From contig NZ_CP033006.1 of NCBI RefSeq assembly GCF_005237295.1, positions 186,001 to 250,000 of the forward strand: DNA of 64,000 nucleotides, read 5' to 3'. The notes under the pieces were generated by a model. That model was not told where the DNA came from and searched no databases. It saw only the letters and a list, made by a program, of their open reading frames with translations. Below are positions 6,392-61,764 of the stretch, piece by piece (the stretch's first letter is position 1; each line of letters starts with the position of its first letter). The translations under genes were made by a program, and so were the position numbers. This DNA comes from Buchnera aphidicola (Macrosiphum euphorbiae) (GTDB lineage Bacteria > Pseudomonadota > Gammaproteobacteria > Enterobacterales > Enterobacteriaceae).

Positions 6392-6653
6392 CATATCTTA
6401 ATTACAATATTTCCATTTGGTTGACAACAACATGGAAATATTTCGCTTTCTTTAAATAAAGCAGCCATGGGCTGTTTTTTTAAGTAGAATATTTCTCCTT
6501 TAATCAATTCAATTCTACACATTCCACAATATCCAGATCGGCACTGATATTCTATATTGATATTATTTAATTCTAAAGCAAATAATAACGAGTTTTTTTT
6601 TTATAAATAATTTTTTTTTTGATATTTATTATTTCAATAATAGTGTAAGTCAT
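6391..6653 (-). pseudogene. yfaE: 2Fe-2S ferredoxin-like protein YfaE, frame broken at a poly(A) tract
   Basis: YfaE maintains the diferric-tyrosyl radical cofactor of NrdB. Reading from the ATG at 6653 gives about 20 residues and then runs into a stop, because the tract at 6593-6602 has ten A (mRNA sense). With eleven A the frame gives an 87 aa protein (E. coli has 84) with the 2Fe-2S ligand pattern EYQCRSGYCGMC (Cys38, 43, 46) and PCCC (75-77), stopping at TGA 6391-6393. A second A10 run at 6611-6620 is in frame; shifting there gives an immediate stop, so the first-named tract is the cause. The start lies one base beyond the nrdB stop, as expected for an nrdAB-yfaE operon. It may still be expressed by transcriptional slippage. 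Confidence 0.85.
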
Positions 6654-6654
6654 T

Positions 6655-7785
6655 TTATAATTTAAATTTTTTAAATTCATTATTAGATAGTTCTGAATCA
6701 ATCTGACCAACTAGATAAGAACTAATTTCTGTTTCTTGCGGAGCAGTTTGTATATTATCAGAAGTTAACCAATTATTAATCCAAGGAATAGGATTAGATT
6801 TTTTTGTAAAAGGCATTTTAAAACCTATTGCGTGCATACGCATATTTGTAATATATTCTATATATTGACAAAGAATATCTTTATTTAATCCGAGCATTGA
6901 ACCATTTTGAAACAAATATTCTGCCCATTTTTTTTCTTGTTGTGAAGCTGAAATGAAGATATTAATAGCTTCTTCTTTACATTCTAAAATTATATCTTTC
7001 ATGTCCTCATTATTTTTTGCATTGCTTAAAATATTCAAAATGTGTTGAGTTCCCGTTAAGTGTAATGCTTCATCACGTGCTATTAATCTTATAATTTTTG
7101 CATTTCCTTCCATTATTTCTCTTTCTGCAAATGCAAATGAACATGCAAAACTAACATAAAATCTAATTGCTTCTAAAACGTTTACACTGATTAGACATAA
7201 ATATAATTTTTTTTTGAGCAAGTGTAAATTGACATAAATTTTTTTTCCATTTACTAAATGGACACCTTCACCAAATAAATGCCAATAGCTCGTTAATTTT
7301 ATTAGTTCATCATAATATATAGAAATATTTTGAGCACGGTCATTAATATTTTTATTTGAAATGATGTCATCAAATACTAAAGATGGAGAATTTACAATAT
7401 TTCTAATTATATGAGTATAAGAACGTGAATGGATGGTTTCTGAAAAAGACCATGTTTCAATCCATGTTTCTAGTTCAGGAATGGAAATAATTGGTAAAAA
7501 AGCTATATTAGGGCTTCTTCCTTGAATGGAATCAAGTAAGGTTTGATATTTTAAATTACTAATAAAAATATGTTGTTCATTATTAGGTAAGTTTTGAAAA
7601 TCTATTCTATCTTGAGAAAGATCTATTTCTTCAGGTCTCCAGAAAAATGATAATTGTTTTTCAATTAATTGTTCAAATATATTATACTTTTGTTGATCAT
7701 ATCTAGCAATGTTTACAGGTTGTCCAAAAAACATGGGCTCTTTAAGTTGATTATTTTTTTTTTTTGAAAAAATTGTATAAGACAT
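6655..7785 (-). CDS. nrdB: Ribonucleoside-diphosphate reductase 1, beta subunit
   Basis: Small subunit of aerobic class Ia ribonucleotide reductase; it supplies the tyrosyl radical. The 376 aa length equals E. coli NrdB. The diiron ligands and radical site are visible: Asp85 in [10 protein letters not shown], Glu116 and His119 with Tyr123 in [14 protein letters not shown], and later ERE and [11 protein letters not shown]. The C-terminal tail [13 protein letters not shown] would dock to NrdA. The gene is downstream of nrdA by 68 bp and is followed by yfaE. Its fourth codon region contains a 12-base A tract (7754-7765 on the plus strand as T) that is in frame. Confidence 0.97.
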
Positions 7786-14498: not shown

Positions 14499-15179
14499 AT
14501 GGAAATTAAAAATGAATCCAATTCTAACTTGGAAAGATGTTTTATCTCAAGAAAAAAAAAAAGATATTTTATTGATATAATTAAATTTCTTAAAAAAGAA
14601 CGTTTAAATAAAATAATTTATCCAGAACAGAAAAATATATTTAATGCATTTTTTTTAACTAATTTTAATGATATAAAAGTCGTTATTCTTGGACAAGATC
14701 CATATTTTTCTAAGAATCAAGCACATGGTTTATCGTTTTCTGTGCCGAAACGTTTTACTATACCACCTTCTTTAAAGAACATATACAAAGAGTTAAATAG
14801 TGATTTTAAAAAAAAATATAGTTTTAATCATGGATGTCTTGAAAACTGGGCTCATCAAGGTGTTTTTTTGTTGAATACTATTTTAACAGTTGAATCAGGA
14901 AAACCAAAATCACATAGTAATATTGGATGGACTATTTTTACTGATAAAGTAATTTCTACAATTAATTTATATAGAAATTCTATTATTTTTTTGCTATGGG
15001 GCAATGATGCACAAAAAAAATCTTATTTAATTAATGAAGATAAGCATTATATATTAAAAACATCTCATCCTTCTCCTTTATCAGCATATCGAGGTTTTTT
15101 TGGATGTAAACATTTTTCTTTAACTAACAAAATATTAGTTGAAAATAAAAAAAAACCGATTGATTGGTTTGTTATTTAA
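14499..15179 (+). CDS. ung: Uracil-DNA glycosylase
   Basis: Removes uracil from DNA, mainly from cytosine deamination. The 226 aa protein has the water-activating GQDPYF motif (Asp67), the uracil-binding NTILTVESGKPKSHS region and the catalytic His190 in HPSPLSAYRGFFGCKHF, all family 1 UNG features. Retention is of interest in a genome whose composition is driven by C-to-T change. The N-terminal 20 residues are poorly conserved and the start is the first ATG in frame. Confidence 0.96.
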   Translation: MEIKNESNSNLERCFISRKKKRYFIDIIKFLKKERLNKIIYPEQKNIFNAFFLTNFNDIKVVILGQDPYFSKNQAHGLSFSVPKRFTIPPSLKNIYKELNSDFKKKYSFNHGCLENWAHQGVFLLNTILTVESGKPKSHSNIGWTIFTDKVISTINLYRNSIIFLLWGNDAQKKSYLINEDKHYILKTSHPSPLSAYRGFFGCKHFSLTNKILVENKKKPIDWFVI

Positions 15180-50093: not shown

Positions 50094-51013
50094 TTAATTT
50101 TTCATATTTAAAATTAATAATACTAGTTCATCAAATGATATTCCCATTTCTTTCGCAGAAATTGGAACTAAACTTCTGTTTGTCATTCCAGGTATAGTAT
50201 TGGCTTCTAGTAACCAAAACTTGTTTTCATTATCTAATATAAAATCAATCCTTCCACATCCACTGCATCCTAGTGTATTCCATGCTAAGATTGCTGTTTT
50301 TTTTAATTCTATTTCTTGGGTTGTGTTTAATCCACTTGGACACAAGTATTTGGTAGAAGAAGATATATATTTAGAATTATAATCATAAAAATCATTATTA
50401 GTAGAAATATGAATAGAAGGTAGTGCTTTTTCGCCTAAAATAGATATTGTATATTCTTTTCCTTTTATAAATTTTTCAATAAGAATATTGTCATCATAAT
50501 CAAAAGCTATATTTATAGCATTATTAAGTTGTTTAAGATGAGATACTAGTGTTATACCTATACTCGATCCTTGATTATTTGGTTTGATTAAGACAGGAAA
50601 TCCTAGTTTTAATATTTTTTTTATTATAATTTTATACGAAGATGCAAAATTTTTTTTTTTGAAATATAAATATCAGGTGCTGTTAAAAGACCGCGGGATT
50701 TCCATAGTAATTTAGTTCTAAATTTGTCTATAGAGATCGAAGATGCCATAATTCCACTTCCTGTATAAGGAATTTTTAAATATTCTAGCAGTCCTTGAAT
50801 ACTACCATCTTCTCCACCTTTTCCATGTAATGAAATATATGCTTTATCAAAACCTTCTTGTTTTAATTGTATTAAAGAATAATCACGTGTATCAATGGGA
50901 TATGCGTTTAATCCAGATTTTAATAAACTATTAAGAACAGCATATCCTGATTTAATTGAAATTTTTCTTTCAGAAGATGTTCCACCCAATAAAACTGCTA
51001 TTTTTTTGTTCAT
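50094..51013 (-). pseudogene. ddlB: D-alanine--D-alanine ligase, frame broken at a poly(A) tract
   Basis: ATP-grasp ligase making D-Ala-D-Ala for MurF. The first frame runs from ATG 51013 (KKIAVLLGGTSSERKISIKSG, ISLHGKGGEDGSIQGLLEYL) to an A11 tract at 50650-50660 and stops soon after. With one extra A the frame continues without interruption through LIKPNNQGSSIGI, NILIEKFIKGKEYT, SGCGRIDFILD and LLEANTIPGMTNRSLVPISA to the stop at 50094. The restored product is 306 aa, the same length as E. coli DdlB. No other damage is visible, so slippage rescue or a sequence error is as likely as true loss. Confidence 0.88.
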
Positions 51014-56070: not shown

Positions 56071-57143
56071 CAACACACCTTTAAAGAAATAAGACCTATT
56101 AATAGTAATATTAATGAAATAATCCAGAATCTTACAACAATTAAAGATTCCAATATTCCTTTAATTTCATAGTGGTGGTGAATTGGGGCCATTTTAAAAA
56201 TTCTTTTTTTTCTAATTTTGAATGATATTATTTGAATGATAACAGATATTGTTTCAAAAACAAAAATTCCACCCATGATAATTAGCAACAATTCTTGATG
56301 CAATAATATTGCTATAGTTCCTAGAGAACCACCTAATGATAAGGATCCGACATCTCCCATAAATATCTTAGCTGGATAGCTATTAAACCATAAAAAACCT
56401 AATCCTGATCCAATAATTGCCATACATAATACAGCTAATTCTCCTGAATTTTTTATATAATGAATATGTAAAAAATTAGGGTTGTTTATATTTTCACTAA
56501 ATAAAGATATTAATGCAAAACCACAAGCTAAAAAAATTATAGGCATAATAGCTAAGCCATCTAATCCATCTGTAATATTAACGGCATTGCTAGTTCCAAC
56601 TATTACGAAATAACAAAGAAATATATATAAATAATTTATTTCAAAAGAATTTTTTATATAAAAAGGGATCATTAATTGAGTAGAAATAATATTTTGATTA
56701 TTAGTATTCATTATACAAATAAATACTAAAGCAAAAATAGATAGAAAAAAATATTTCCACTTTAATGTTAAGCCTTGAGAATTTTTATATTTTATTTTCT
56801 TATAATCATCTATTAAACCTATTACACCATATCCTATTAACATAACAATAACGTACCAAATATAAATATTAGATAAATTACAATATAATATTGTCGAAAA
56901 TAATATAGAAGAAATTACAAAAATTCCACCCATAGTAGGTATTTCATTTTTTGAGTAATGTGTTTTAGGTCCATTTTCTCGTATTATTTGATATTTTTGC
57001 GATTTTTTAAAGTGATATATGAAATATGGTCCGAGATATAAATTAATAAAAAAAGAAGTTAATAAGCTAAATATTGCGCGATATGGTACATAAGAAAAAA
57101 TATTTAAATTAAAATTCAAATACTCATTAAATAAAACTAACAT
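56070..57143 (-). CDS. mraY: Phospho-MurNAc-pentapeptide transferase
   Basis: Integral membrane enzyme that forms lipid I. It has about ten hydrophobic helices and 357 aa (E. coli 360). Diagnostic motifs are PTMGGIFVISSILF, LIGLIDDYKKIKYKNSQGLT with the catalytic aspartates, NAVNITDGLDGLAIMP, and the cytoplasmic MAPIHHHYEIKGI. The ATG lies inside the murF end (17-bp overlap), indicating translational coupling. Confidence 0.97.
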   Translation of the reverse strand: MLVLFNEYLNFNLNIFSYVPYRAIFSLLTSFFINLYLGPYFIYHFKKSQKYQIIRENGPKTHYSKNEIPTMGGIFVISSILFSTILYCNLSNIYIWYVIVMLIGYGVIGLIDDYKKIKYKNSQGLTLKWKYFFLSIFALVFICIMNTNNQNIISTQLMIPFYIKNSFEINYLYIFLCYFVIVGTSNAVNITDGLDGLAIMPIIFLACGFALISLFSENINNPNFLHIHYIKNSGELAVLCMAIIGSGLGFLWFNSYPAKIFMGDVGSLSLGGSLGTIAILLHQELLLIIMGGIFVFETISVIIQIISFKIRKKRIFKMAPIHHHYEIKGILESLIVVRFWIISLILLLIGLISLKVC

Positions 57144-58505
57144 TTTTTTTACTCTCCTTTATAAGCTCTTCTACTACTTCTTCCATTTTTGTACTACGAG
57201 ATCCTTTGATTAATATCGTTATTTTTTCTTTCTTTGAAAAAAAATCTTTTAGAGATTTGCATAATTTTTTTTTATTATAAAAATGTTTGCCATTATTAAA
57301 AACCATAGTAATTTGATTACTTATGTTTCCAATACTAAAAATTTTGTTAATTTTAGATAAATTAGCAGTGTTTCCTATCATTTTATGATATAAAATACTA
57401 TTTTCTCCTAATTCAGCCATGTCTCCAGTAACCAGTATTTTATAGCCTGGCATTTTTTCTAATACTTTTATTGCTGAAATCATAGATGAAACGTTAGAAT
57501 TGTATGTATCATCAATTAAAATTTTATTAGGCTCCAATATAATTGATTCTAATCTTCTTGACACGAGAGGAGTTTCTGATAGTCCTTTTTTTATTTTTTT
57601 TAAAGGTATTTTAAGTGCGAAAGAAAGAGCGCTAGCTGCTAATGCATTAGATATATTTTGATAACCTAAAAATGGTAGAGAAATATTTATTTTTCCACAT
57701 GGTGTGTGCATTGTAAAAGATGTACCATACACATAAATTTTAATATTACTACAAAAAAAATTGCTATATTTTTTTTTTTAATGGAAAAAAATAAAATCTT
57801 ATTTTTTTTTATATCTTTTTTCCATTGTGAAAGATGGTGACTATCCAAATTAATAACAACTATTCCTTTAGGTTTTAATCCGGTCAATATTTCTGATTTT
57901 GCTTTAGATACTCCTAATAATGATTTGAACCCTTTTAAGTGAGCACAATGAATATTATTAATTAATATAATCTCTGGTTGACTAATATTGCTAGTATAAG
58001 AAATTTCACCTGGTTTATTTGCTCCTAATTCAATTACAGCATATTTATGTTTTTTTGTTAACTGTAATAAAGTCATAGGTACACCAATATTGTTATTTGA
58101 ATTATTAATAGTAGATATTGTATTTCCATTTTTTCTAAGTATAGATGCTGTCATTTCTTTTACTGATGTTTTTCCACAAGAACCAGTAATGGCCAACACT
58201 TTTACGTTAGTTTTTTTCCGAATCCAACTAGAAATTTGACCTAAAGCAATAGATGTATTTTTTACTATGATATATGAAACAACATGAGAATTTATATTCT
58301 TTTGTGTAATAAAAGCAGAACACCCTTTTTTAATAGCATCATTTATAAAAATATGTGCATCAAATTTTTTTCCTATCAAAGCAATAAAAAGACAACCTGG
58401 AATAATTTTTTTAGTATCAATTACAATCTCATCTATCAATAAATCTGTTCCATGTAGCTTTCCATTAGTAATTAAAGCAATTTTTTTTAATGATAAAGAA
58501 ATCAT
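57127..58505 (-). pseudogene. murF: UDP-MurNAc-tripeptide--D-Ala-D-Ala ligase, frame broken at a poly(A) tract
   Basis: Adds the D-Ala-D-Ala dipeptide produced by DdlB. The first frame (about 242 good residues) contains the P-loop ITGSCGKTSVKEM and NNIGVPMTLLQL. At an A11 tract (57769-57779) it slips out of frame. With one more A it continues YSNFFCSNIKIYVYGTSF and then PCGKINISLPFLGYQN, LIDDTYNSNVSSM, VTGDMAELGENS and KGSRSTKMEEVVEELI to the stop at 57127. The restored protein is 459 aa (E. coli 452). Both halves keep all recognisable motifs, so selection for function seems to continue. Its ATG overlaps the murE stop. Confidence 0.88.
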
Positions 58506-60030: not shown

Positions 60031-61764
60031 TTAATTTAATAAATTGTCTGGTTTTATATTCATTTTTTTTAATACTAAAGTCATTATATTACTGAAAACT
60101 GGAGCAGAAACTGCACCTCCATAATATTTTTTTCCTTTAGGATTATCGATAACAATTATCAATGAAAATCTTGGATTACTAGCTGGTGCGATTCCAGCAG
60201 TATAAGCTGTGTATTTTTTAATATAATACCCATGAATTCCTACTTTTTTTGCAGTTCCTGTTTTAATAGCAACACGATATCCTTTCACTGCTGCTTGAAC
60301 ACCTCCTCCTCCGGGTTTAGCAACACTTTCCATCATATTAATTACTTTTTTTACATATTTTTTTGGGAAAATTCTCTTTTCTTCTATTGGGCTACTAATT
60401 TTTATAATTGAAAGCGGGCGATATATTCCATAACTTCCAATAGTGGCATATAATCGAGCTAGCTGAAGAGGCGTTACCATTAGTCCATATCCAAAAGAGA
60501 AAGTAGCTTTATCTAAATCAGACCAGTTTTTTTTTTTAGGTAAAAATCCGCTTTTTTCGCCAATTAGTCCTAGTTTAGTCGGTTGTCCTAGTCCAAAATT
60601 AATATAACTATCAATTAATTTTAAAATTGGCATAGATAATGCGATTTTTGATACTCCTACATTACTAGATTTTTGTAATATTCCGGTTATAGTAAGTTGG
60701 TCATGATAGGAAACATCTTTTATTTGATGCTTTCTAATAAAAAAAGGTTTTGTGTTAATTATTGAATTTTCTTGGATTATTCCTAGTTTTAATGCTTCCA
60801 TAATTACTATTGGTTTTATTGTTGATCCTGGTTCAAAAATATCTGTAATAGCTCTGTTACGTACATTTTTTTTTATCGTATGTTTCATATTATTAGGATT
60901 AAATGCAGGACTATTTGCCATAGCTAGCACTTCCCCAGTTTTAATATCAATTAAAATAGCAGTTCCAGAATCAGCTTTATTTTGTTCTACCGATTCATTT
61001 AGTTTATGATATACAATAGTTTGTAATTTGGTATCAATACTGAGTGTCAGGTTGTTAGATGCGCTTTTATCAACCAAAGATATATTTTCAACGATTTGGC
61101 CTATATTATCTTTTCTTATCTTTCTTTGTCCTGGTTTTCCTGTTAAAAGTGCATTAAAACTTTTTTCTATACCCTCAATGCCTATTCCATCTATATTGGT
61201 TATTCCTATAAGTTGAGCTGCAATTTTTCCGAAAGGATAATATCTTTTTGATTCTTCCAATAAAAAAATACCAGGCAACCGCAACTTTTTAATATATTCT
61301 GAAATTTCAGGATTGATTTGACGTGCTAAATAAATAAATTTTGATTTTTTGTAAGAATTTATATGAAAGATTATTTCTTTTAATGGGATAGAAAGAACTT
61401 CTGATAACGCTTTCCAGCGTTTATCATTGTTAATATTTTTAGTGTCAAGAATTACTGATGGATCTGCGCAAATAGCGTTTACTGATACAGTAACTGCTAG
61501 CGGATAACCTGATCTATCATTAATAATTCCTCTTGTGCTAAGTAAAGATTGTATTCTTAATGTTCTACGATCTCCTTCTATTATTAGTGGATTCGGATTG
61601 ATTATTTGTAAAAAAATTACGCGTAGGGTCAAAATTATTAAGGATAAAAAAATAAAATTATATAATATAGAAAATCGCCAATTTATATAGTTTATTTTTT
61701 TTATTTTTTTTTCTTTAAAAAAGTTAATTTTTTCTTTTTTGTACATTTTCGAAATGATATCCAT
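60031..61764 (-). CDS. ftsI: Penicillin-binding protein 3 (FtsI)
   Basis: Septum-specific transpeptidase. A short cytoplasmic Lys-rich segment and one membrane helix (about 34-53) lead to the PBP dimer domain ([18 protein letters not shown]). The transpeptidase has [12 protein letters not shown] (SxxK, near 310), KSSNVGVSK and the KTGTAKKVG motif near 500. It has 577 aa from ATG 61764; a TTG one codon upstream is also open. An in-frame A11 tract at 60527-60537 encodes part of [11 protein letters not shown]. Confidence 0.97.

Follow-up and report, generated by a model that had tools for sequence, protein, structure and literature searches.

Frame break of Buchnera murF at a poly(A) tract, widespread in the genus and probably bridged by slippage

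Polymerase slippage at poly(A) tracts that rescues frameshifted endosymbiont genes was reportedly described by Tamas et al. in 2008 (PNAS), with murF said to be among the genes included and with immunostaining for MurF said to have been part of that work. The murF locus of Buchnera aphidicola from Macrosiphum euphorbiae analyzed here resembles this case in the symbiont, the kind of tract, the direction of correction and, reportedly, the gene itself; unlike it, the present case is known from sequence alone, and it adds one more species and compares phase and length classes across 35 genomes of the genus and a sister genus. Bacterial transcriptional slippage at A/T runs is likewise described for tssM of Citrobacter rodentium and for mxiE and spa13 of Shigella (PMC6260861). 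Homopolymer breaks of murF were reported for the symbionts of A. pisum (5A and Tuc7), A. kondoi, U. ambrosiae and S. graminum in Degnan et al. 2011 (PMC3164680), where slippage and regulation are raised as possibilities. In the M. persicae symbiont, gene models with polyA indels were merged because both sides seemed to be under purifying selection (PMC3890641); murF is not named in the text of that paper as far as a term search goes and, unlike the genes concerned there, it is in frame in G026, the putative M. persicae symbiont. The phenomenon is thus real and mostly known, the slippage mechanism and the frameshifts of Buchnera murF being already published, and what is new here is the scale of the break within the genus, the phase in which it is kept and its two main length classes, together with a solution to the wall puzzle discussed below that can be put to the test. 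Neither a genus-wide count for murF nor a link to this puzzle appears in the open-licence titles and the beginnings of abstracts, and either may still be in print.

The window, i.e., the entire analyzed stretch of 64,000 nucleotides, contains on its forward strand a T11 run at positions 57769..57779, which reads A11 on the coding strand of murF (-) and represents both the proposed slippage site and the frame break of the gene (phase 2 of 3). That this genome carries A11 is to be taken as the probable state, given its own assembly and the relatives. The N part of murF (57687..58505, (-)) starts with an ATG at 58505, reaches a stop that ends at 57687 and encodes 272 aa, including an out-of-frame tail of about 30 residues; a Pfam search with this ORF identified Mur_ligase and the beginning of Mur_ligase_M (positions 1-151 of 200). 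The C part (57127..57777, (-)) lies in another frame, which is open from position 57777 at the tract to the murF stop that ends at 57127, contains Mur_ligase_C and shows signs of purifying selection; it shares 88 nt with the open frame of the N part. The upstream junction is an ATGA overlap of 4 nt between murE and murF (58502..58505, (-)), of the same length in 24 of the 35 genomes, and downstream the C part overlaps mraY by 17 nt (57127..57143, (-)), a value shared by 15 of the 35 genomes, with 20 nt in 10. The original prediction, namely that an A11 tract splits murF into two halves that keep the expected motifs and that the coupling overlaps on both sides are preserved, is therefore borne out. 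Its premise that murF is single-copy agrees with a search of the source genome, which consists of one contig of 645,334 bases: six matches were obtained, namely the two murF pieces, murE, murD, murC and a weak match located elsewhere in the genome than the window (E 8e-8; profile positions 113-332; in an open frame of 439 aa), and no second murF was recognised among them. When MurF of an intact relative is aligned with its E. coli counterpart (1gg4), the lysine-rich stretch coincides with a gap of one residue in a region of low conservation, and the four free-living outgroups have no A run at the position of the tract.

The break is widespread in the genus. We collected 36 Buchnera genomes, including the one studied here, of which 35 contain murF as detected with the TIGR01143 profile; G024 was left out. 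The profile gives a single match over the cut-off in 6 of the 35 genomes, and in the other 29 it gives two pieces, always divided at the same point. At the tract, murF is in phase 2 in 28 genomes, including that of the M. euphorbiae symbiont, in phase 1 in one (G030) and in frame in 6. Beyond this break, the frame stays open in 28 of the 29 broken genomes; in G018, there is a second break near residue 423, and G030 has a stop that precedes the end of the reference by two residues. The length of the A run varies from 9 to 14 in 34 genomes and is 7 in G005, and the anchors that flank the tract lie 53 apart in 27 genomes, 54 apart in the 6 in-frame genomes, 52 apart in one and 47 apart in one. 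Because this distance is nearly constant, the differences in run length would, by our own reading, stem largely from base changes at the edges of the run. In the sister genus, which includes G079 (the putative Baizongia pistaciae symbiont), murF is broken at the same place in 6 of 11 genomes, with phase 2 in two and phase 1 in four; given these two phases, the break there probably arose or changed more than once. The sister-genus genomes with a broken tract, in two different phases, are G212, G231, G232, G235, G238 and G239. In the whole family, 169 of the 198 genomes searched have a match to the murF profile over the cut-off. In G024, a Buchnera genome of about 600 kb, we found no candidate with the murF profile, which elsewhere also finds murE, murD and murC.

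Translation through the tract predicts selection in the shifted frame behind it, which neither a pseudogene nor separate cistrons would produce, barring frequent in-frame intervals. In 14 hand-chosen genome pairs, which have both partners in phase 2 and share branches, the median dN/dS is 0.213 behind the murF tract and 0.152 in front of it; the medians for five neighboring genes range from 0.181 to 0.211 (murG and rsmH, 0.181; murE, 0.199; mraY, 0.206; murD, 0.211), where murG and rsmH are free of core breaks in all 35 genomes and murD, mraY and murE are broken in some. A second set of seven disjoint pairs from two clades gives pN/pS values of 0.25 and 0.22 for the 3' rest of murF, to be compared with 0.27 and 0.25 for murD and 0.25 and 0.26 for mraY. 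For codons 248-263 (0-based), behind the tract, pN/pS is 0.19 in the shifted frame vs 0.84 in the unshifted frame and 1.88 in the third one (14 pairs), and in the disjoint pairs the shifted frame yields 0.06 (15 changes) and, in the four-pair set, 0.44 (17 changes). Many, though not all, of the motif positions encoded behind the tract show little or no variation; for instance, the G, S and R of the KGSR motif and the D, Y and N of the DxYN motif are kept in 35 of 35 genomes, other motif residues in fewer. The absence of AAG from the tract is a weakly informative sign of selection, as AAG accounts for 5.5% of the lysine codons in the cluster genes. Hence, the break lies at an uninterrupted A run of the length of about 9 or more that slippage rescue calls for (A11), and the part behind it shows purifying selection in its own frame, weaker for the short stretch in one clade (0.44); the relaxed selection typical of pseudogenes is not seen, dN/dS (0.21) being like that of the neighbors. 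The reading implied by the original prediction, that murF still works across the tract, is thus backed by the comparison of 35 genus and 11 sister-genus genomes.

We consider it quite likely that murF is a functional gene read by slippage on its A run, mainly at the level of transcription. Under this model, RNA polymerase would slip while copying A11, so that a share of the transcripts gains one A; these lengthened transcripts would be read into the C-terminal frame and yield full-length MurF with a lysine-rich loop, and the remaining ones would give the 272-residue fragment. What can be read from the aligned genomes is the tract, its common phase in most of the genus and the selection on the shifted frame directly behind it; the mainly transcriptional nature of the slippage, its yield and the lack of a role for the fragment are inferences. 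Published data point in the same direction: insertions into transcripts at Buchnera A runs climb exponentially with run length up to 11 (PMC5574713), corrected transcripts amount to 12-50% where frameshifted genes were studied in an aphid symbiont (wall synthesis) and in an ant symbiont (a histidine gene) (PMC5009743), slippage occurs at A10 in Buchnera mur genes (PMC6260861), and it is reported as shown in the R. padi symbiont (PMC3164680). Contrary to this, transcription errors restoring a reading frame were not detected in Buchnera according to PMC5574713. Against slippage also stand the possibility that frequent returns to frame along the branches could let in-frame intervals explain part of the selection, and the four of six sister-genus breaks in a phase that one added A would not mend.

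The same protein as from one added A would result if ribosomes, rather than RNA polymerase, slipped one base back on the run, and the heptamer A AAA AAA that is characteristic of programmed minus-one shifting (dnaX or IS type) is present within it, by eye, at the needed spacing. However, no stimulating structure was found behind the tract in the 28 phase-2 genomes (pseudoknot-free folds of 70 nt each; mean z 0.36, lowest -1.55), the upstream region is AT-rich, with no Shine-Dalgarno-like element visible by eye, and the published transcript data favor the polymerase (PMC5009743, PMC5574713, PMC6260861), so we regard ribosomal slippage as unlikely. Still less likely, in our view, is that murF is splitting into two coupled cistrons, with translation restarting at an ATG 22 nt before the stop of the N part and with the fragments assembling afterwards. 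Such an ATG is found at reference index 264 in 24 of the 29 broken genomes, mostly 22 nt before that stop, other junctions in the operon often overlap too, and the C frame of the genome studied here also has a GTG at 57732; yet the same ATG is present in all 6 intact genomes and is replaced by ATA in 5 of the 28 phase-2 genomes, selection in the shifted frame is seen at indices 248-263, i.e., ahead of the restart, and a split at this point would cut the middle domain in two. The presence of the ATG in intact genomes and the selection ahead of it led us to disfavor internal restart.

Frameshifted genes are usually scored as pseudogenes, and with 29 of 35 genomes carrying an out-of-frame murF, its inactivation counted four times in one study (PMC3164680), and murF, murC and/or murE taken as lost in most Aphidini in another (PMC9116674), one could suppose that murF is dead and that the wall is built without it. 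This seems highly improbable considering the dN/dS of 0.21 behind the tract, the KGSR and DxYN columns kept in 35 of 35 genomes, and the low pN/pS (0.25 and 0.22) of the bulk of the 3' part in disjoint pairs from two clades; decay is argued against by a 3' part that evolves like the neighboring genes and by the shifted frame being selected directly behind the tract. A homopolymer artefact of sequencing or assembly is the least credible of the explanations considered. Long A runs are indeed prone to error, and 454 data are described as unreliable in AT-rich regions (PMC3890641), but 29 of 35 genus and 6 of 11 sister-genus genomes have murF broken at this tract, the phase is the same in 28 of 35 assemblies and the flank distance is 53 in 27 of 35, and the assemblies in phase 2 include G008, the putative R. 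maidis symbiont, whose published genome was polished with PacBio and Illumina reads. We retain slippage, mainly during transcription, as the preferred reading.

The history of the break was traced on a tree of 49 rows (quick method, LG+G4) that contains two of the four outgroup loci and has G053 on a long branch; G065 and the Escherichia and Enterobacter rows were left out before counting. At least 12 phase changes are required on this tree overall, and 9 for phase 2. On all 49 rows, the better fit is that of reversible models (AIC 76.7, 76.7 and 79.1 vs 81.6 and 81.8), which assign phase 2 to the base of the genus, G005 set aside, with a probability of 0.95 to 0.98. When only the 35 genus rows are used and an in-frame base is imposed, the best fit is obtained with irreversible breaks (40.3), followed by a three-rate reversible model with a fitted return rate of zero (41.0), and the others range from 44.9 to 51.0. 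The two histories considered, a single old break that later reverted in places or several separate breaks, need 7 and 8 changes when we count them on the tree. The broken state at the base of the genus thus depends on the choice of model and taxa. Degnan et al. 2011 inferred four independent inactivations of murF (PMC3164680); unlike in that reading, selection here does not look like inactivation, and the larger tree fits either history. According to the same source, murF is intact in the Tokyo strain of the A. pisum symbiont and frameshifted in 5A and Tuc7, so the phase can change rapidly. With rapid change, a share of 28 of 35 genomes in a single phase calls for selection or for a strong bias in mutation, and with slow change the break is old; either outcome would be notable. 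A more speculative idea, to which we give limited credence, is that the tract is a maintained slippage switch, where a frame break that goes back nearly to the root of the genus has persisted because MurF and, via coupling, mraY are thereby kept at a low set point, the tracts of murC, murE and ddlB acting likewise. If true, polymerase slippage would throttle much of the stem-peptide branch of wall synthesis.

To place the murF tract among comparable sites, we surveyed ten cluster genes in the 35 genomes, dropping breaks in the first 12 and the last 15 residues of each reference gene as gene ends vary. Runs of at least 9 are out of frame in 29 of 34 cases at the murF tract vs 35 of 470 at 79 other sites, and runs of at least 10 in 28 of 33 vs 34 of 162, a difference that Fisher values overstate given that the genomes are related. 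A run of 9 or 10 located about eleven codons upstream of the tract in murF itself is never out of frame (0 of 12). Among the other sites, those with frequent breaks are murC near residue 99 (10 of 15 out of frame), ddlB near residue 119 (7 of 18), murE near residue 174 (5 of 15) and murC near residue 16 (5 of 20, perhaps start variation), and no broken runs were found at ftsI near residue 402 (0 of 18) or at murG near residue 225 (0 of 19). Therefore, breaks cluster in the stem-peptide genes, most of all in murF, with the exception of murD, which is broken in 2 of 35 genomes. In the nine cluster genes other than murF, 33 of 36 breaks at A/T runs of at least 7 are correctable by one added base, by our own count, which leaves out four further breaks without such a run, includes breaks shared among related genomes and takes in five murC breaks at residues 13-17 that may be start variation. 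Insertions made by the polymerase are located in such runs far more often than its deletions are (151 of 157 insertions vs 16 of 57 deletions; PMC5574713). The one-sidedness of the breaks may mean either that deletion is the more common mutation or that, given this insertion bias, the class mended by one added base is alone tolerated. The sister genus breaks the rule, as 4 of its 6 murF breaks belong to the class not corrected by one added A.

A second frame break of the same kind in the cluster is found in ddlB, at an A11 tract in positions 50650..50660 (-), with an N part at 50624-51013 and a C frame at 50094-50672. The product of ddlB makes D-Ala-D-Ala, which MurF attaches. Breaks of ddlB of the same class are also present at this site in G006, G020, G032 and G029, and dN/dS behind the break is 0.17 to 0.32 (four pairs). 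In G018 (L054), there are two murF breaks and further ones in murE, in murC and near the start of ftsW; in this lineage, the wall pathway may be decaying.

The survey also bears on the cell wall of the R. maidis symbiont, which is said to build a wall while lacking murC, murE and murF, with novel adaptations of the pathway being proposed (PMC9116674). In that work, frameshifted coding sequences were excluded and it was concluded that most Aphidini Buchnera are without murF, murC and/or murE, and one of its passages calls MurF the remaining ligase, at odds with other passages. In G008, the putative R. maidis symbiont (642,929), murC, murE and murF are all present, each is broken once, at an A10 run and in the correctable class, and dN/dS behind these breaks is 0.13 to 0.30 in the examined pairs that include G008; murD has a shift near its start at T7. 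Given the low dN/dS and the correctable A10 breaks, we infer that the three genes have probably not been lost in this symbiont. It also points to a bias in those gene-loss tables of AT-rich symbionts from which frameshifted genes are excluded. Slippage at murF is worth pursuing both for how widely a single phase has spread within the genus and for its link with the wall puzzle.

Five A/T runs of at least 11 occur in the window, and three of these are at frame breaks. Apart from the murF and ddlB tracts, a run is located in ftsI at 60527-60537, with no break there, and another at 7754-7765. The gene for uracil-DNA glycosylase (Pfam UDG) at 14512-15176 is out of frame relative to G029 at A11 14552-14562, near its start. 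At 6394-6653, a gene that encodes 87 aa in a relative appears to be out of frame at an A10 near 6593.
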